Below the pieces are notes generated by a model. It made no database searches. It was not told the DNA's origin and was given only the letters and a program-made list of their open reading frames with translations. A stretch of 41,332 nucleotides of DNA from positions 1 through 41,332 of the forward strand of contig JADFGO010000009.1 in NCBI GenBank assembly GCA_022567655.1, in the 5' to 3' direction. The position numbers were made by a program, and so were the translations under genes. This DNA is from Candidatus Neomarinimicrobiota bacterium (lineage in GTDB: Bacteria; Fidelibacterota; SORT01). Of the stretch, positions 7,046 through 41,301 are shown piece after piece. Every line of letters starts with the position of its first letter. The stretch's first letter is position 1.

Positions 7046-7381
7046 ATGGGATTGGAAACTATTAAATTGAGGGATCTCGAAGGTAAAGCCGTTAATATCT
7101 TTGAGGCGATAACGGTTATGGCGAAACGGGCAAGGCACATTAATAACGTCAGGCTCGCTGAAAAAGAGGAGATCCTTGACGGACATGATGATGATAACGA
7201 GGAATATATCACCGAACCTATGGTTCCTATAAACATGAAGAAGGAAACGAAAGTCGCTACGATAGCGTTAAATGAGTTTTTGAGGGGCGAAATCGAATTC
7301 GAGTACGTCGAGCCGATGCCGATATCGGAGGACGAAGTGGTTCAAGAATCAACCGGTGAGGATAAGCCGAGCGAAGATTAA
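7046..7381 (+). CDS. rpoZ: RNA polymerase omega subunit
   Basis: This 111-residue protein carries the omega/RPB6 core: NIFEAITVMAKRARHIN followed by a later ATIALNEFLRGEIEFEY helix-strand. Omega helps assemble the beta-prime subunit and in some bacteria mediates ppGpp response, which is apt given rel in the same run. An acidic insert (DGHDDDNEE, about residues 46-54) separates the two conserved helices, and the C-terminal tail is Glu/Asp rich. GGAG at 7031-7034 is the ribosome binding site. It lies 6 bases after gmk and 11 before coaBC. Confidence 0.9.
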   Translation: MGLETIKLRDLEGKAVNIFEAITVMAKRARHINNVRLAEKEEILDGHDDDNEEYITEPMVPINMKKETKVATIALNEFLRGEIEFEYVEPMPISEDEVVQESTGEDKPSED

Positions 7382-7392
7382 CTCAAAAATTC

Positions 7393-8595
7393 ATGAAGTT
7401 AGCGGGTCGAAATATAATATTAGGGGTTACAGGCGGGATAGCGATTTATAAATCGGCTTCCCTGCTTCGAAAACTCAGAGTGGAGGAAGGCGCCGACGTT
7501 CAGGTGATAATGACCGCCTCCGCCCTGAAATTCATGACTCCGTTGATATTTGAAACCTTTTCCGGCAAACCGGTCTGGACAAATCTATTCTCAGACTCCG
7601 AGATGGTCGGCGTGCGTCATGTGGATATATCGAAATGGGCCGATGCTGTACTGATCTGTCCGGCTACGGCAAACATAATAGGAAAAGCGGCAAACGGAAT
7701 TGCAGATGATCTGCTTTCCACGGTCATCTGCGACGCGGGAACGAAATCTATTTTCGCTGCTGCCATGGAATCCGGAATGTATAATAACCCTGTGGTAAAG
7801 GAAAACGTGAAGAGACTCAAGGATGCGGGTTTCGGATTCATAGAACCTGAAACCGGAGCGCTGGCATCGGGAGCGGAAGGAATAGGCAGGCTGGCTGACG
7901 AGGATACGATTATTCAGGCGCTGAAAAATCATTTGCCTTCCGGGACGCTCGAGGACAAGAAGATAATTGTCACAGCCGGTCCGACAAGGGAGTATATCGA
8001 TCCGGTAAGGTTTATATCAAATCCTTCGACCGGTAAAATGGGCTATGCGCTTGCTGACGCCGCTAGGAAAGCGGGCGCTGACGTCACATTGATCAGCGGT
8101 CCTGTAGATTTATCTGAACCGGTCGGCGTTGATGTGAAGAGAGTCACGACTGTCGAAGAAATGAAAAACGCTCTTTTAGAAAAATTTGCGGATTGCGACG
8201 CTCTACTTATGGCTGCCGCAGTCGGGGATTACGCTCCGTCGGAAGTCTATGAGCAAAAGATAAAAAAGAACGGCGAGGATCTGACACTGAAATTAAGACG
8301 GACAGAAGATATATTAAAGACGGTAAAAAGCCTGAAAAAGAATAAGATTGTTATCGGATTTAGTGTTGAGACCGAAAAGTTAACGGAAAATTCTAAATCC
8401 AAATTGAAAGAGAAGGGTCTTGATCTGATTATTGCCAACAATCCAAATGAAAACGGCGCCGGTTTCGCCCACGACACCAACAAAGTTTCTATTATCGACT
8501 CGAAAGGAGAGATAGAAGAGTTAGATCTGATGAGCAAGCAGGAGCTCTCAGCTGTTATTATTGACAAGCTCTCAATTTTATTAAACGGGAGTTGA
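7393..8595 (+). CDS. coaBC: Bifunctional phosphopantothenoylcysteine decarboxylase / phosphopantothenate-cysteine ligase
   Basis: The 400-residue protein has an FMN-dependent CoaC domain (about 1-180) and a CTP-dependent CoaB domain (about 188-400), giving two steps of coenzyme A synthesis. CoaC shows GGIAIYK, the catalytic His76 (VRHVD) and PATANIIGK. CoaB shows TAGPTREYIDPVRFISN, AAAVGDYAP and KIKK. Two CoaC positions differ from the E. coli pattern: the PAMN motif reads AAME (Glu126), and the flap ACG motif reads ASG (Ser159), replacing Asn125 and Cys158 of E. coli. Similar substitutions occur in other phyla as I recall, so loss of function is not implied. It is tightly placed between rpoZ and the UDG gene. 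Confidence 0.93.
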   Translation: MKLAGRNIILGVTGGIAIYKSASLLRKLRVEEGADVQVIMTASALKFMTPLIFETFSGKPVWTNLFSDSEMVGVRHVDISKWADAVLICPATANIIGKAANGIADDLLSTVICDAGTKSIFAAAMESGMYNNPVVKENVKRLKDAGFGFIEPETGALASGAEGIGRLADEDTIIQALKNHLPSGTLEDKKIIVTAGPTREYIDPVRFISNPSTGKMGYALADAARKAGADVTLISGPVDLSEPVGVDVKRVTTVEEMKNALLEKFADCDALLMAAAVGDYAPSEVYEQKIKKNGEDLTLKLRRTEDILKTVKSLKKNKIVIGFSVETEKLTENSKSKLKEKGLDLIIANNPNENGAGFAHDTNKVSIIDSKGEIEELDLMSKQELSAVIIDKLSILLNGS

Positions 8596-8598
8596 CGA

Positions 8599-9297
8599 TT
8601 GCCCGATCCGATTAAAGTAAAGGCAGCACGCTATCTTCAGCAGCAATCAGAAATCTACGGTCCGGAGTTACTAACAGACGGGAGATTGGTGAAACATTCC
8701 GATGAAGTTTCCCCTAATGACGCAGCTGAGGCTCTTGAATCGTTTTACAAGGAAATAAACGGCTGTCTGCTCTGTTCCTTAGGGAAAACACGCACGAAAT
8801 TCGTATTCGGCGTGGGAAACCCGAACGCGGACCTGATGCTTATCGGAGAAGCGCCCGGGAGGGATGAAGACCTGAAAGGCGAACCTTTCGTAGGAAGAGC
8901 CGGACAGTTGTTGGATAAAATACTTTCCGCTATTAACTTGTCGAGAGAGGAAGTATATATAGCTAACGTATTGAAATGCCGCCCCCCAAATAACAGAGAT
9001 CCGTTGAAAACAGAATCTGACACATGCAAACCTTACCTCCTGAGGCAGATCGAGATCATAAAACCGAAAATAATTCTGGCGCTCGGAAGGATTGCGGGAG
9101 TCTGGTTGACCGGAGAAGATATGTCGCTCGGTGCGATGCGCGGTAAGACTTTTTCATTTGGGGATAGTGAACTTATGGTAACATATCACCCCGCAGCCCT
9201 TCTGCGTAATCCCGGCTGGAAGAGACCGTGCTGGGAGGATATGCAGAGAGTGCAAAAACGATACTTAGAACTGACCGGGAATAAGGGTGCATCATAA
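8599..9297 (+). CDS. Family 4 uracil-DNA glycosylase (4Fe-4S)
   Basis: This 232-residue enzyme should remove uracil from DNA as the first step of base excision repair. Motif 1 is GEAPGRDED (residues 83-91), followed by GEPFVGRAGQLLD. Motif 2 is HPAALLRNP with His197. Four cysteines expected to bind the iron-sulfur cluster are Cys56, Cys59, Cys127 and Cys143, the pattern of family 4 (thermophile-type) enzymes. The start is TTG at 8599, three bases after the coaBC stop, with GGGAG at 8587-8591 well placed. It has about 50 extra residues at the N-terminus before the first Cys pair. The gene ends one base before the dnaB ATG. Confidence 0.92.
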   Translation: MPDPIKVKAARYLQQQSEIYGPELLTDGRLVKHSDEVSPNDAAEALESFYKEINGCLLCSLGKTRTKFVFGVGNPNADLMLIGEAPGRDEDLKGEPFVGRAGQLLDKILSAINLSREEVYIANVLKCRPPNNRDPLKTESDTCKPYLLRQIEIIKPKIILALGRIAGVWLTGEDMSLGAMRGKTFSFGDSELMVTYHPAALLRNPGWKRPCWEDMQRVQKRYLELTGNKGAS

Positions 9298-34506: not shown

Positions 34507-35505
34507 ATGAGCATGAATCTTAAGAAAATATCTTTTTATATCCGCATGCTCGTTACCCTTCTTCTCATTTATTTCGTCTATAATTTTTTCGATATACGAT
34601 TCGATGGATTAATGAGCTCGTTCTATGAATCAAACAAGAAATATGTTTTTTCAGCGTTTGCGCTTATGCCGCTGACGTTGTCAATTCAAATATCCAAGTG
34701 GCATCTATTATTGCGAACGCTGGATAAAAACATGAAATTACGATCGGCTGCAACTTCTTATCTTGCCGGAATGACACTCGGAATAGTCACCCCTGCGAGA
34801 ATCGGGGAACTCGGCAGGGCTTGGTTTTTGCGCGGCGTGCCGCAGTTGGAGGTGGTGGGTCTCACTATTATAGATAAATTCTATTCTACTCTCGCATATT
34901 TTTCTATCGGGATATTGACTTCGCTCATACTTCTATACGATTATGTTGATCTGAACGTTTCTTTAAGGATTTTATATTACACGATTGCTGCCGGAAGCTA
35001 TCTCTTTATATTGGTTGCGCTTTTGAATCCCGTGAAAATCGGAAAGATGATAAAGTTCGCCGGAAAGATATTCCGGAAAAAAGAGGCTTTGAACGTTATT
35101 ACGAATTCATGGTCCATGGTACCTCGAAAAAGAATTTTAGTAGTATATGGACTTGCCACTGCAGTTTGGAGTTCCGTGATTACACAGCTTTACATCCTTA
35201 TCCGGGCTTTTGACGCAGTGCCGTTATTTGACGGTCTTATAAGCGCCTCTACAGCGCATTTCGTAAAAACGCTGCTGCCTCTCACCTTAGGGGAATTAGG
35301 TATAAGAGAAGCATCTGTATCATATTTTTTCGGTAAACTCGGGGTAGGTGAATCGGAGGCATTCAGCGCAGCTCTGCTTATGCTTTTGATTAATGTTCTT
35401 CTCCCTGCCTTGGTCGGAGCAATATTCATTATGCGCTTAAAAATCGGAAGAGGCTCAAATAGTAATCAAGAGAGCAGTCTAACCGGGCATGAGGAGCAGG
35501 TATGA
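34507..35505 (+). CDS. Integral membrane protein, YbhN/LPG-synthase-TM family
   Basis: This 332-residue protein is hydrophobic throughout, with about seven to eight membrane helices. It carries the family marks TPARIGELGRAWFLR (about 98-112) and LPLTLGELGIREASVSYFF (about 258-276), as in the transmembrane module of lysyl-phosphatidylglycerol synthetases (PF03706). Family members without the transferase domain are thought to flip or handle lipids or polyprenyl-linked substrates in the inner membrane. The substrate is unknown. It overlaps the PHP gene by 4 bases (ATGA), so the pair is translationally coupled. Confidence 0.83.
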   Translation: MSMNLKKISFYIRMLVTLLLIYFVYNFFDIRFDGLMSSFYESNKKYVFSAFALMPLTLSIQISKWHLLLRTLDKNMKLRSAATSYLAGMTLGIVTPARIGELGRAWFLRGVPQLEVVGLTIIDKFYSTLAYFSIGILTSLILLYDYVDLNVSLRILYYTIAAGSYLFILVALLNPVKIGKMIKFAGKIFRKKEALNVITNSWSMVPRKRILVVYGLATAVWSSVITQLYILIRAFDAVPLFDGLISASTAHFVKTLLPLTLGELGIREASVSYFFGKLGVGESEAFSAALLMLLINVLLPALVGAIFIMRLKIGRGSNSNQESSLTGHEEQV

Positions 35506-37106
35506 TTGAATTTCTTATGCCGGTGATGGCTTACGCCGAAGTGCATTACAGGTGGAGATTTTTTCCAAGCAGAATTTATATGCCATATCCGGAGATAATC
35601 GCCGACGTGCCTTTCAGGCTCGAACCTGATACGGCTCTGCCGGTTCTATGCATAATCAAAGACGCACATAGATTTCCCGTGCGATTGGAAAAGATAGAGG
35701 TGGCCATTTCTATGACCGGAGGCGATTCACAGGCTCGGCAGTTTGATTTTGAAAACGTCCTTATTGAGGAGAGATTCTGGAATAGAACGCTTTCTCTGAG
35801 TTTACCCGGCAACAGTGCCGGGGTTGTAAGCGTAACGGTGAAGTTCAGCCTGTCAAACGAAGCCGATGGAAAGTTCGAGGTAGTGAATGATAATTTCAAA
35901 ACGTTGCCTCCGTTAAATTTGAGCGTTTTGATCCCGGAATATGCCTTACCTTCATTACCCGGCTGGAGCTACGGTGATTTTCATACGCATTCGGAGTTTA
36001 CCGATGACAAAGTGGAGTTCGGCGCTCCTATCATGTCGTCATCCATAATCTCGAAATCAATCGGACTCGATTTTTTTGTTGTTGCGGACCATTCGTACAA
36101 TCTCGATAATTCGATCGAATTTCCGTACGAAAACGATGCTGATCTGCCCCGCTGGCATAAATCAAGGGAAGAGATGAGAGAAGCAGGGACGAAAGAGGGC
36201 GCTCTGCCTATACCAGCCGAAGAAGTCTCTTGCGGTAATAGAAAAGGGGAAAACGTACATCTTTTAGTGGTTGATCCCCCTGTTTTTATTCCCGGCAACG
36301 GAGACTGCGAGGACGATTATCCCGATACCGAACCAACACTCTCTGTGGCAGAGGTACTCGATCTCATGGGGAATGGTGCAGTTGCCATAGCAGCCCACAC
36401 GCTGGAAAAACCGCCGTTCGGACAACGACTTCTGTTCAACAGGGGATATTGGGCGAAAGAAGATCTTTTGGATGATCGTATAATCGGATTACAGATTTTG
36501 AACGGTCTTCCGGATGATTCGTTCCGTCGGGGATATGAAGTATGGATAGATCTCATACTCGAAGGTAAGAGAAAGATTATCCTCGCGGGCAACGATGCTC
36601 ACGGCAACTTTAACCATTTCAGACAGATAAAAATTCCTTTCCTTTCGATGCATGAGCACAGGAAGCAATTGTTCGGACAGGTGCGCACCGCACTGAAGCT
36701 TGACGGCGGAATGGAACTCAACGCTGTTCTGCAAGCATTGAAAAAGGGGCGGGCACAGATAACTACTGGGCCTATATCCGATATCTCCCTGAAGACTCAA
36801 AATGGCGAGCTGTATGAGATTGGGGATGAATATCCTTATGATGAAGGAAAATTGAGCATCACCGCGGCTTCGACAAAAGAGTTCGGGAAACTAAAACGAA
36901 TTGTTGTTATCAAAGGAGAGATTTCGGCCCGGAAAGAGGAAGAGATTCACAAATATACGGATTTCGCTGATGGATACAGATTTGAGGATGTTCTCACCAT
37001 ATCACGATTGAGTCGCGGTTACGTTAGAATCGAGGTATATACCGAATCCAACGATAAGGAGTCGTTCTCGATAACCAATCCGATATGGCTAACAGGAGGA
37101 GCTTAG
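35502..37106 (+). CDS. PHP-domain metal-dependent phosphoesterase-like protein
   Basis: The 534-residue protein has an N-terminal beta-rich domain of about 155 residues that I do not recognise. A PHP domain follows (about 156-410) with metal ligands HTH (161-163), DH in VVADHS, AAHT and NDAH (364-367), then a beta-rich C-terminal domain (about 415-534). PHP enzymes hydrolyse phosphoesters using two or three metal ions; CehA-type members are similar. No signal peptide is obvious, though residues 1-15 are hydrophobic. It overlaps the YbhN-like gene upstream, suggesting a joint job on a lipid-linked phosphate. Its stop overlaps the convergent DUF1704 gene's stop. Confidence 0.82.
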   Translation: MIEFLMPVMAYAEVHYRWRFFPSRIYMPYPEIIADVPFRLEPDTALPVLCIIKDAHRFPVRLEKIEVAISMTGGDSQARQFDFENVLIEERFWNRTLSLSLPGNSAGVVSVTVKFSLSNEADGKFEVVNDNFKTLPPLNLSVLIPEYALPSLPGWSYGDFHTHSEFTDDKVEFGAPIMSSSIISKSIGLDFFVVADHSYNLDNSIEFPYENDADLPRWHKSREEMREAGTKEGALPIPAEEVSCGNRKGENVHLLVVDPPVFIPGNGDCEDDYPDTEPTLSVAEVLDLMGNGAVAIAAHTLEKPPFGQRLLFNRGYWAKEDLLDDRIIGLQILNGLPDDSFRRGYEVWIDLILEGKRKIILAGNDAHGNFNHFRQIKIPFLSMHEHRKQLFGQVRTALKLDGGMELNAVLQALKKGRAQITTGPISDISLKTQNGELYEIGDEYPYDEGKLSITAASTKEFGKLKRIVVIKGEISARKEEEIHKYTDFADGYRFEDVLTISRLSRGYVRIEVYTESNDKESFSITNPIWLTGGA

Positions 37107-38359
37107 CTCATTATCTGTTCGTAATGCTCTTCAACTTCTTTAAAACTGATAGTGTCCATAAAAGCCGCGAAATTGAAGAATGTGACGAGATACCTCATAT
37201 CCTTTACCCAGTTCGGGAGATATTTCGGTTTCCTGACCATCCCGTCTCTATAAAGATCATAAAGTATCGGCACACTTTCCGCGGTGATCTTGCCGGTGAA
37301 GAGGAATTTTACAAACTCGGGCTTCCCTTTTTTTAATGCTACGCTGACAAAATTATAAATCCTGACCAATCCGTCAAGATATGCGACGTCCTTGGTAAAA
37401 GGCGCGCCGCCTTCCATCAATCCTCCTCTGAAACACCGGGCGGAAGCGTCAAATGCGTCGTCCTCGGAAAAATTCTTGTCCAGATAGAAATTGTAAACAT
37501 CGATGAAGTCTGCGCCTTCTTCGCACATCTTGATAGCGATAGTTCTGTAAGCGAGTTTTTTGACCCGCATCGGATCGATCTGCTGACTCATGAATTCCGC
37601 AAATACGGCTAATCCCTCCTGATAAATTGTCGTTCCGGGAGTACCCTTCGAGAGGAATTTCAGCACCGGCTGTGAAGAGCCGTTAAGCGTGGTAGCAAGG
37701 TGCACCTCGCCTTCGTGTCTGATAAGCTGCTGAATTTGTCTTTTTGTATAAGAGGCGCCCTTTCTTAGTTTTAAGTAATCGGCTCCAGCAGAAGCGTCGG
37801 CGGTCATACGGTTTGAGATGATCACCTTGATTTTTCTTTTAGGGAAGAGCTTATGCAATTTATCGGAAAGAAGCTTTTTAGCTTCGAGGGAAGTGAGTTT
37901 CGATTTGGAAGCTTTTTTATCGCCGGGAAGATCGTATCCAGTAAATCCCTCGCTAAGATGCTTGGCGAGATCAAGAATTGAAACATTTCCGCCGATGTAG
38001 CGATAATCAGGATAGCCGAAGAGTTCCTTGGAATATTTATAAAAATCCTTTGTGCCTCTGGACTCAAGCATCCTTATAGTCAGCAGGTATTCTTTGCAGG
38101 CTCTGTGAATCATCTTTTCAGCCGGATTTGATTTGTCGAGATGGGATTGGATATCAAGAAACATCCTTCTCCGTTCATCCGCATCCCACCTGAGAGGAGG
38201 ATATTCATACCGTGGCAACCGCTTACTTCTTCGCGCGAGAAACCGCTTTTTAACCGTGATGGGAATGTGTATGGAAGATAGGATCCGTATAGGGCGTTGT
38301 GCCATTAATAGTGATTTGCTCACGCCGCGCAGGAATTTTCTATAAGAACTTTTTTTCAT
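37103..38359 (-). CDS. DUF1704/QEGLA-motif metalloprotease-like protein
   Basis: The 418-residue protein has the HExxxH zinc motif HEGEVH (His215, Glu216, His220) and the QEGLA motif (247-251), which together define the DUF1704/TIGR02421 family, once labelled as modulating flavohemoglobin expression. The eukaryotic relatives MATCAP/TMCP are tubulin tyrosine carboxypeptidases, so peptidase activity is plausible here; a bacterial substrate is unknown. It lies downstream of a TPR lipoprotein with 39 bases between them and shows no clear Shine-Dalgarno. The N-terminus (1-45) is basic and not like a secretion signal. Its stop codon overlaps the PHP gene's. Confidence 0.85.
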   Translation of the reverse strand: MKKSSYRKFLRGVSKSLLMAQRPIRILSSIHIPITVKKRFLARRSKRLPRYEYPPLRWDADERRRMFLDIQSHLDKSNPAEKMIHRACKEYLLTIRMLESRGTKDFYKYSKELFGYPDYRYIGGNVSILDLAKHLSEGFTGYDLPGDKKASKSKLTSLEAKKLLSDKLHKLFPKRKIKVIISNRMTADASAGADYLKLRKGASYTKRQIQQLIRHEGEVHLATTLNGSSQPVLKFLSKGTPGTTIYQEGLAVFAEFMSQQIDPMRVKKLAYRTIAIKMCEEGADFIDVYNFYLDKNFSEDDAFDASARCFRGGLMEGGAPFTKDVAYLDGLVRIYNFVSVALKKGKPEFVKFLFTGKITAESVPILYDLYRDGMVRKPKYLPNWVKDMRYLVTFFNFAAFMDTISFKEVEEHYEQIMS

Positions 38360-38398
38360 AGATGAAGGAATATGCGGATAAGGAGTTTGGAGCTGTTC

Positions 38399-39355
38399 TT
38401 ATTTACCCCAAAATTCGTCAAGCTTCTTTTTCCGCTTCCTCTGTCTATCCAACTCCTTCTTTATCTTGGAAGTGAATTTTCCGTCGGTATCGAGTTCGAG
38501 AGCTTTTTCGTAATGGCTAAGGATATTTTCGAAATCTTTATCGTCCTTTTTCAGATATCCGAGCGCAAGATAATAGTTCGGCTCCGCTTCATTCGTCCTC
38601 ACTTCAGCGGCTTTTCCAAATTCGACGATTGCATCCCAAATTTGCCAGCGGCTCCCCTTTTTATACAGATAGAGACCGTTGGACATAAAGGAATAATATC
38701 TTATGTCATCGCTGTCCCGGTTGTTTGAAATCGCTTTATCCAGATATTTTTTTGCAGTTACGATATTATTGTTCTCATACGCTTTTTTGCCTTTAACGTA
38801 GTTAGACTCGGCTACAGTTCTGCGTTTTTCTATTTCGGTTTTAATCTCCTCGACTCTATTTTTCTCCCTGCCGCCTCTTCCCGCTTTTTCCAACAATTCG
38901 GATGCCAATGTTAATAGTCCGTACTCCGTATATGCTTGAGCAAGCCCTAACGTGATCCCGGGATCATTTTTATTTAAGCTGTATCCCTTTTTATAAATTG
39001 CAATGGCATCCTCAATTTCCCCTGCGTTCAACTTTGATCCGGCATCTTTGGAGTAGATTACCTGGAGCGACGCTATCGTTCCTTTGTTGTTCTTGTCTAA
39101 CTTATATGATATTTCGAATTCTTTTTTTGCTTCAGTGTGCTTATTCTGCGCCTGGAGCGACATTCCGAGCATAAAGTGTGCCTGTGCGTTATCCGGATCA
39201 GCATCAAGAGAAGACCTGTATGAGCTCTCAGCCGCCTTATAATCACCCGCATCATATAGTGCATCAGCTTCATTTAGCGTTCCGGAGCATGAGATTAAGA
39301 GAAGACACGGTATTAAAATTAAGAGATAGAATCCCCTGATACCTATATGAGACAT
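38399..39355 (-). CDS. TPR lipoprotein
   Basis: The 318-residue protein has a lipobox LLISC (Cys23) and about six TPR units (from residue 28: ADALYDAGDYKAAESSYRS, then AQAHFMLGMSLQAQNKHTEA and others). A Lys/Arg-rich C-terminal end (RQRKRKKKLDEF) follows. TPR lipoproteins act as adaptors in envelope assembly or secretion. It is likely cotranscribed with the DUF1704 gene, separated by 39 bases. The hairpin just upstream (39381-39407) ends the preceding unit, so this is probably the first gene of its transcript. Confidence 0.85.
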   Translation of the reverse strand: MSHIGIRGFYLLILIPCLLLISCSGTLNEADALYDAGDYKAAESSYRSSLDADPDNAQAHFMLGMSLQAQNKHTEAKKEFEISYKLDKNNKGTIASLQVIYSKDAGSKLNAGEIEDAIAIYKKGYSLNKNDPGITLGLAQAYTEYGLLTLASELLEKAGRGGREKNRVEEIKTEIEKRRTVAESNYVKGKKAYENNNIVTAKKYLDKAISNNRDSDDIRYYSFMSNGLYLYKKGSRWQIWDAIVEFGKAAEVRTNEAEPNYYLALGYLKKDDKDFENILSHYEKALELDTDGKFTSKIKKELDRQRKRKKKLDEFWGK

Positions 39356-39438: not shown

Positions 39439-39669
39439 CTATATGACGCGATGCACAAGCAAACCCACCATAAGGATCAGTGTCACCAATATTGCCGCGA
39501 CACCGTAATTGCGGTCCTTAATTTCCGCCCACTCGTCGATATCCTTAGAAAGCCAGTTGAAAACCTTAAGAGCGAGCCCAACTCCAAAAGCAAACCCTAT
39601 TGAAGCAACAATCGCCCATAACAAAGACCATAGGTATCCGGCCAATCTCGTCATTATAGGTATGTCCAT
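39439..39669 (-). CDS. Small two-helix membrane protein, DUF350-like
   Basis: The 76-residue protein has helices at about 12-36 (WSLLWAIVASIGFAFGVGLAL) and 56-74 (GVAAILVTLILMVGLLVHRV), joined by KVFNWLSKDIDEWAEIKDRN. The middle resembles the DUF350/YjfL family, where a Lys/Asp-rich hydrophilic loop (DIDEWxEIKxxN) is conserved. Function is unknown. AGGAGG-type sequence (reading AAGGAGG on the minus strand) lies just ahead of the ATG. It forms a two-gene unit with the secreted protein upstream and ends at a clear terminator. Confidence 0.78.
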   Translation of the reverse strand: MDIPIMTRLAGYLWSLLWAIVASIGFAFGVGLALKVFNWLSKDIDEWAEIKDRNYGVAAILVTLILMVGLLVHRVI

Positions 39670-39688: not shown

Positions 39689-40111
39689 TTAATACCAGCT
39701 CACGTTAGAGCTTACAAATTGGTTTGTGCTGATCTTCTTGTTCAGAAGTGAAAGAATATCCTCTGTATTAGCTGCGAGCATGATGCGTTCATCATCCTTC
39801 TTAGAGATAGTGAGCATAATGTTTACAGTGTCGAAATTGTAGTCTGTTTTCCGTATTGCCACACCACAAGCGTAAAAGCCTACCAGCATGACCCGGTCGA
39901 TATCCGTTCTTCTCGCTTCGAGAGTCAGGAGAAAATGGCGTTTGTCACCATCGTTCACAAACTTCATATTATCGTATGAAACGTGTAATCCCTGGGTTCT
40001 GAAAACTTTCTGAACGGTACTGTAAAAAGCGAAATCGTTGGCCCGGATGACTCCAGAGAATAAAATCAGGAACATCAATCCGGTCAGGTTTATCAGCCGC
40101 CTATTTTTCAC
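39689..40111 (-). CDS. Small secreted protein of unknown function
   Basis: The 140-residue protein has a signal peptide (about 1-25, ending IRAND) and one compact domain of alternating strands: YDNMKFVNDGDKRHFLLTLEA, VMLVGFYACGVAIRKT, VNIMLTISKK. A single Cys (in YACGV) lies in a hydrophobic strand, so it is not a redox pair. I do not recognise the family. It precedes the DUF350-like gene by 19 bases and is probably cotranscribed with it, making a small envelope unit. Confidence 0.72.
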   Translation of the reverse strand: MKNRRLINLTGLMFLILFSGVIRANDFAFYSTVQKVFRTQGLHVSYDNMKFVNDGDKRHFLLTLEARRTDIDRVMLVGFYACGVAIRKTDYNFDTVNIMLTISKKDDERIMLAANTEDILSLLNKKISTNQFVSSNVSWY

Positions 40112-40331: not shown

Positions 40332-40458
40332 ATTTATATTGGACTAAGGCGGGAATATTTGAAATACTTATTTGATTTGAACATAGACGAGGTTATTGAC
40401 AGCCCTGTAGGGAATTATCTTATTCCTAAGAATGCCGATTTCGAAGGATTCAGATAGA

Positions 40459-41301
40459 TTGAAAATTAGCGTATACGGATTAGGTTACGTAGGTTGTGTC
40501 CTCGCAGTATGCCTAAAAACAATGGGCCATGACGTAACCGGAGTGGACGTTGTCGTTGATAAAGTAGAAGCGATTAACTCAGGGAAGTTGCCCTTTTATG
40601 AACCGGACCTTGATGAAACCAACACTGCAAGCAGTACGGGGTCATTAATTGCCACAACCGACGGTTCGGAAGCCGTGAACGGCTCAGTAATATCTTTTGT
40701 GTGTGTAGGAACTCCGAGTACCGCTTCAGCGGGTGTAGATCTAAATCAAATCATATCAACCGTTAAAGAAATCGGTAGGTCGATAAAAGCTAAAGGGGAG
40801 AAACACTTAATTGTTATCAGAAGCACCATCCCCCCGGGAACCATTGATGAAGTTATAATACCACTTCTGAATGAAAATATTGGACTTAAAGAAGGTATAG
40901 ATTATGAGGTCTGTTTCTATCCTGAATTTTTACGGGAGGGGAATGCGGTCGCCGATCTATTGAAGCCGTCTCTTAACGTGCTTGGCGCGCAGAAGAATTT
41001 TCCTGTCGAAGTCATGGAAGAGATTTTCGAGCAAATAGATATACCTTTTGAGTTAACCGATTTCAAGAGCGCGGAGATGTTGAAATACGCTTGTAACGCG
41101 TTTCACGGATTAAAAGTAACTTTTGCAAATGAAATCGGCGCTTTAAGCAAGGAATTCGAGATTGACGGGGCGGGAGTGGTTTGTTGCGGGAGGGGCGCGA
41201 ATCGCGAAGGCGGGAGACGCGGGAAGGGATTCTCGCACGAGCGGGATGTGCCGGTCTTAGACGGAGACAAACGAGCCCAGCGGGTCAATAGATCAACCTG
41301 A
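40459..41301 (+). CDS. GDP-mannose/UDP-glucose 6-dehydrogenase family, 3' part degraded
   Basis: I choose TTG 40459 with GAAGGA upstream because it gives the family N-terminus ISVYGLGYVG (NAD-binding GxGxxG). An ATG at 40432 would add nine residues without a ribosome binding site. SFVCVGTPS, VIRSTIPPGT, YPEFLREGNA and SAEMLKYACNAFHGLKVTFANEIG match the AlgD-like group, which oxidises sugar nucleotides to uronic acids for capsule or exopolysaccharide. After about 41165 similarity stops: a GC- and Gly/Arg-rich stretch replaces the expected FGGSCLPKD segment with the catalytic Cys, and the frame ends early at 41301. This is likely a damaged contig end rather than a true gene end. Other exopolysaccharide genes may lie beyond the window. 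Confidence 0.75.
   Translation: MKISVYGLGYVGCVLAVCLKTMGHDVTGVDVVVDKVEAINSGKLPFYEPDLDETNTASSTGSLIATTDGSEAVNGSVISFVCVGTPSTASAGVDLNQIISTVKEIGRSIKAKGEKHLIVIRSTIPPGTIDEVIIPLLNENIGLKEGIDYEVCFYPEFLREGNAVADLLKPSLNVLGAQKNFPVEVMEEIFEQIDIPFELTDFKSAEMLKYACNAFHGLKVTFANEIGALSKEFEIDGAGVVCCGRGANREGGRRGKGFSHERDVPVLDGDKRAQRVNRST

Follow-up and report, generated by a model that had tools for sequence, protein, structure and literature searches.

The window analysed here is the whole 41,332-nucleotide stretch of contig JADFGO010000009.1, from a Neomarinimicrobiota (Marinimicrobia) genome, and its gene of interest encodes a metallopeptidase-like protein of the MATCAP family (PF08014, formerly DUF1704), enzymes known for removing C-terminal Tyr. 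The gene is intact-looking, its product is an ordinary-looking bacterial member of this known family, and it lies between the gene of a tetratricopeptide-repeat (TPR) lipoprotein and a convergent gene for a CehA/McbA-type metallohydrolase (Table 1). An earlier note on this DNA had seen in the peptidase a relative of the tubulin carboxypeptidases and in the lipoprotein its possible adaptor, and we have followed up both proposals.

The MATCAP protein and its active site

The open reading frame (ORF) matches PF08014 over nearly the full length of the profile (positions 1-363 of 365) with an E-value of 2.1e-119 and 399.2 bits against a cut-off of 27, and its product belongs to the MATCAP family. 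The NCBIfam model TIGR02421 ("flavohemoglobin expression-modulating QEGLA motif protein") describes the same family, and a Pseudoalteromonas member passes its cut-off with 369 bits, whereas the window protein scores 308.8 bits, below the equivalog threshold of 338.65. No flavohemoglobin gene was seen beside the window gene; in PMC10308900, a "flavohemoglobin expression-modulating" QEGLA gene appears among the genes that change with salinity. The gene is the single MATCAP gene of its genome, where the only further match has an E-value of 0.07, and its DNA composition (G+C of 0.446 versus 0.458 for the window) gives no sign of a foreign origin.

The two signature motifs, HEGEVH and QEGLA, occupy residues 215-220 and 247-251, respectively. 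When 21 MATCAP proteins of Proteobacteria and of the Neomarinimicrobiota families f1, f3 and f27 are aligned (f1, f3, f10 and f27 are arbitrary names given here to bacterial families of the phylum, and the window belongs to f1), the invariant columns include H215, E216, H220, Q247, E248, G249, L250, A251, R308, R311, K323, D324 and Y327. A profile built from aligned relatives reaches the human KIAA0895L/MATCAP structures in the PDB (7z5g, E 1.6e-6; 7z6s, E 6e-5), and the HExxxH motif, the EGLA motif and an R-x-x-R-G...KD-x-Y segment line up between both sides; the human enzyme was not retrieved from the PDB when the window protein served as a single-sequence query. The kinship with tubulin carboxypeptidases that the earlier note had read from the two motifs is thereby borne out, by the full-length PF08014 match as well as by the reach of the profile, and loss of HExxxH in relatives, which the note had named as a finding that would speak against its reading, was not seen in any of the 21 sequences.

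By alignment, E216 and E248 correspond to E281 and E316 of human TMCP1. As reported in PMC10499314, E281A and E316A substitutions strongly decrease the activity of that enzyme, which is also inhibited by chelators. Because its active-site residues are conserved and align with glutamates that are essential by mutation in the human enzyme, the bacterial MATCAP is likely to be catalytically active, as far as can be judged from sequence. The human tubulin metallocarboxypeptidases TMCP1 (MATCAP, KIAA0895L) and TMCP2 (KIAA0895) have in common with the window protein the PF08014 domain, the HExxxH and EG(LA) motifs, both essential glutamates and the R-x-x-R-G...KD-x-Y segment, but overall identity is low and the window protein has no tubulin in its context. 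An AlphaFold2 model built from an alignment of only four sequences reached a mean predicted local distance difference test (pLDDT) score of 44.5, and the support for the predicted fold is that of the sequence profile.

Near the N-terminus, the hydropathy of the best 19-residue stretch amounts to 0.88 in MATCAP and to 2.23 in the lipoprotein. A hydrophobic N-terminal segment, seen in the lipoprotein and in the 140-residue protein encoded further upstream, is not present in MATCAP, in agreement with the lack of a secretion signal stated in the earlier note, and from the lack of such a segment the enzyme is probably cytosolic.

Table 1. Features of the window around the MATCAP gene (aa, amino acids; bp, base pairs).
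Feature	Coordinates	Strand	Remarks
CehA/McbA-type metallohydrolase	35502..37106	(+)	convergent with MATCAP, 4-bp overlap
MATCAP/DUF1704 metallopeptidase-like protein	37103..38359	(-)	418 aa, without signal peptide; candidate active site H215, E216, H220 and E248
TPR lipoprotein	38399..39355	(-)	318 aa; C-terminal region invariant, with LDEFWGK at its end; probably no more than a neighbour of MATCAP
76-aa membrane protein, DUF350-like	39439..39669	(-)	25.2 bits, just below the cut-off of 26; at 5/5 f1 loci
140-aa protein	39689..40111	(-)	hydrophobic N-terminus, probably exported; without family match; recurrent lipoprotein neighbour in f1, f3 and f10
Nucleotide-sugar dehydrogenase	40432-41301	(+)	family match ends at residue 250 of 289

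The lipoprotein neighbour and the empty site

The lipoprotein gene is located 39 bp upstream of the MATCAP gene and on the same strand, a gap that measures 35-45 bp in four f1 relatives. Its product starts with a hydrophobic segment ending in LLISCSG, a lipobox-like site as read from the sequence, whose Cys is invariant in the five f1 proteins. In a survey of 245 Neomarinimicrobiota genomes, MATCAP was found in 23, namely 5 of f1, 17 of f27 (out of 33 in that family) and 1 of f3. All five f1 genomes keep together the genes of the 140-residue protein, the DUF350-like protein, the lipoprotein and MATCAP, and the order and spacing of the last two persist while the proteins have diverged to 55-73% identity. 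The lipoprotein could therefore be thought to form a working pair with MATCAP in f1 alone, recruiting the peptidase or presenting its substrate, all the more as its C-terminal region is strongly conserved. This conservation, however, extends well beyond MATCAP, since relatives of the C-terminal half are found in 73 of the 245 genomes (E 1e-10), most of them without MATCAP. Furthermore, the pair sits in a block of about ten genes that is wholly syntenic in f1, where the neighbours through the CehA/McbA gene, a flippase-like gene and others also stay in order, and an export signal is present in the lipoprotein and missing from MATCAP. We regard such a pair as quite improbable.

Outside f1 the linkage disappears. 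Among the listed ORFs that flank MATCAP in the other 18 genomes of the phylum with this gene, none had a match to any further ORF of the window (0/18 genomes), with the reservation that flanks are short in some genomes (e.g. G168 and G178), where MATCAP lies near a contig end. A homologue of the C-terminal half of the lipoprotein is encoded in 12 f27 MATCAP genomes, each time on another contig (12/12). Because the linkage is confined to f1, and there to a wider syntenic block, the lipoprotein is rejected as the partner of MATCAP and is most probably a chance neighbour; the adaptor role put forward in the earlier note fails the check that the note itself had proposed, as the linkage to TPR lipoproteins is not conserved in the phylum beyond the family of the window.

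The steadier companion of the lipoprotein is the 140-residue protein, which has no Pfam family and relatives in 138 of the 245 genomes (E 0.001). Both genes are close on one contig in 12 genomes (5 of f1, 3 of f10 and 4 of f3) and are direct same-strand neighbours, without MATCAP, in all six f10 and f3 loci that were fetched, which argues against a pairing of the lipoprotein with MATCAP. The exported 140-residue protein and the TPR lipoprotein with its conserved C-terminal end thus constitute an unnamed module in three families. A profile of the f1 sequences did not find the DUF350-like gene at the f10 and f3 loci. The invariant C-terminal -SWY of the 140-residue protein was considered as a detyrosination target and set aside: this protein appears exported, its f10 homologues end in -IFH, and MATCAP is probably cytosolic.

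The f10 loci also display what the locus looks like without the enzyme. In all three of them the next gene after that of the lipoprotein is a convergent CehA/McbA homologue (33-35% identity with the window protein, E 2.5e-97 or lower), with no MATCAP gene in between, and no MATCAP match was obtained in these three genomes. The window gene occupies exactly the place that is empty there. Because MATCAP is rare in the phylum, its insertion in f1 would be a simpler reading than its loss in f10.

MATCAP in other clades and the editing of C-terminal tails

Other clades surround MATCAP with different genes. In f27, the gene directly follows rimO on the same strand, at 31 bp or less or overlapping it, in 16 of the 16 loci with upstream DNA; rimO was identified at each of them by a sequence motif and at one also by TIGR01125. 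In an alpha/beta-proteobacterial (Rhizobiales-type) clade, genes for an N-formylglutamate-amidohydrolase-like (FGase-like) protein, MATCAP and a glutathione-synthetase-like ATP-grasp protein stand in line in the four records opened (4/4; domains checked in one of the four), and Photobacterium sp. DA100 has FGase and MATCAP fused in one gene (7110-9098 of the locus), whose start is overlapped by an upstream ATP-grasp gene, so that MATCAP occurs with both partners in 5/5 members of this operon clade when Photobacterium is counted. The MATCAP domain of the proteobacterial operon has the HExxxH and QEGLA motifs of the window protein but belongs to a longer protein (about 620-660 residues), which is extended at the N-terminus by an additional region and is encoded next to a ligase; no FGase match was found in the genome of the window, whose locus does not have this arrangement. 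Comparative-genomic work on ATP-grasp amidoligases reportedly described peptidase-ligase operons, and the operon of the Proteobacteria may have been published before.

In a midpoint-rooted tree of few sequences, f1 groups with four gammaproteobacterial-type solo proteins (support 99/97), and both f27 and the operon clade fall elsewhere. Two annotated Pseudoalteromonas records have MATCAP without partners of the rimO, ATP-grasp or FGase type and with varying neighbours; the Aeromonas and phage records are unannotated and were examined as ORF lists only. Solo genes with changing neighbours and a distribution as patchy as that in the phylum would suit a housekeeping metallopeptidase of general peptide and amino-acid catabolism, which clears small peptides and has no dedicated protein target. 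Yet the fixed operons of the two other clades argue for a specific role, there at least, and we hold the catabolic explanation to be unlikely.

Two further records deserve mention: the MATCAP gene of one f27 locus (G154:C52) is apparently degraded, with several stop codons in its C-terminal half, and OQ572403.1, which is named Pseudomonas phage Y1 and marked UNVERIFIED, contains a bacterial-type MATCAP gene and possibly bacterial DNA. The viral contigs searched for MATCAP gave no match.

ATP-grasp ligases write C-terminal tails, as TTL and TTLL do on tubulin and RimK on ribosomal protein S6, and MATCAP enzymes erase such tails in eukaryotes. The ATP-grasp genes adjoining MATCAP in the Rhizobiales-type clade and at the Photobacterium fusion locus are suggestive for this reason, and rimO, its neighbour in f27, is a gene for a modifier of ribosomal protein S12. 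A bacterial MATCAP might hence undo the work of a RimK-like or glutathione-synthetase-like ATP-grasp ligase by removing the glutamate or other residues which that ligase has attached to a C-terminus, and the two would mirror in bacteria the TTLL/MATCAP cycle known from tubulin. Human TMCPs do remove polyglutamate, as stated in PMC10499314, and the genome of the window encodes a RimK with both RimK domains, although on another contig than MATCAP. In f1 the writer could be RimK, which is there without its usual eraser RimB.

RimK is present in 15 of the 23 MATCAP genomes and in 11 of the 222 others (26 RimK carriers and 23 MATCAP carriers among the 245 genomes), but the raw Fisher p-value of 7.7e-12 is dominated by kinship. 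Within f27, RimK occurs in 9 of 17 MATCAP genomes and in 4 of 16 others (p 0.16), or in 4 of 5 versus 3 of 6 when counted by genus (p 0.55), and the value of about 0.005 obtained by family was computed post hoc on an assumed total of 29-32 families. As the signal is mostly kinship, this co-occurrence was dropped as strong evidence. Moreover, no RimK was seen in eight of the MATCAP genomes, including one that is 88% complete.

A bacterial eraser of C-terminal polyglutamate already exists in RimB, described in PMC11957791 as the retropepsin-like deglutamylase of RimK-modified S6; it is an aspartic protease unrelated to MATCAP. RimB had no match in any of the five f1 genomes, all of which have RimK (5/5), while the RimK genomes of f27 and f3 already carry it, and according to PMC11957791 bacteria commonly have RimK without having RimB. 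The idea that MATCAP replaces RimB suits f1 but gives no general rule, as RimK, RimB and MATCAP coexist in nine f27 genomes and in G238. S6 was likewise discarded as a substrate: its tails are acidic, but the C-termini read in f1 end in -KV, -SA or -PA and not in glutamate, a crude script having found no readable tail at 10 of the 30 loci examined. On balance, removal by a bacterial MATCAP of residues that such a ligase has added appears unlikely, and it is just as doubtful that the substrate of the enzyme bears a tail written by an ATP-grasp ligase. We give slightly less credit to the broadest form of the idea, in which bacterial MATCAPs erase ATP-grasp-built C-terminal tails and the eukaryotic tubulin-tail cycle would continue an older bacterial chemistry of writers and erasers with ribosomal or other proteins, or peptides, as its targets; if true, a reversal of ATP-grasp tagging by MATCAP enzymes would place the ancestry of tubulin-tail editing in bacteria.

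As to rimK itself, the gene of the window genome overlaps an inositol-monophosphatase-like gene, as read from the sequence (G000:C39, 2275-3947), and other families of the phylum show a rimB-rimK order, unlike f1.

A probable cytosolic enzyme, likely acting on its own

The explanation we favour, with a probability of roughly 0.55, is that of an intact cytosolic MATCAP metallo-carboxypeptidase-like enzyme that is independent of the upstream lipoprotein. By analogy with the human enzymes, the window protein is likely to be a C-terminal carboxypeptidase, with H215 and H220 of the HExxxH motif and E248 of the QEGLA motif as predicted metal ligands and E216 as the residue that would activate a water molecule, the two glutamates playing the part of their equivalents in human TMCP1. 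The enzyme would trim residues off the C-terminus of a cytoplasmic protein or peptide, whereas the TPR lipoprotein would be an envelope protein belonging with the secreted 140-residue protein. In f1, the MATCAP gene would have been inserted at the point where the lipoprotein and CehA/McbA genes converge, and would at most be co-transcribed.

Some points weigh against this explanation. The literature searched gave no activity or functional study for any bacterial MATCAP, the relevant results on MATCAP/TMCP being eukaryotic only, and for that reason catalysis and the preference for C-termini are extrapolated from eukaryotic relatives of low identity. Furthermore, the kept order and gap may reflect a link between lipoprotein and MATCAP that is specific to f1.

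The interest of this gene resides in the target of the bacterial enzyme and not in the lipoprotein pair. With the lipoprotein set aside, the clades in which MATCAP has a stable operon (with rimO in one, with ATP-grasp and FGase genes in another) offer better systems in which to look for this target, such as the rhizobial operon.

Beyond the genes discussed, the match of the nucleotide-sugar dehydrogenase to its family stops short of the end of the ORF and close to the contig end, and the final residues seem out of frame, possibly as an assembly or frameshift effect.

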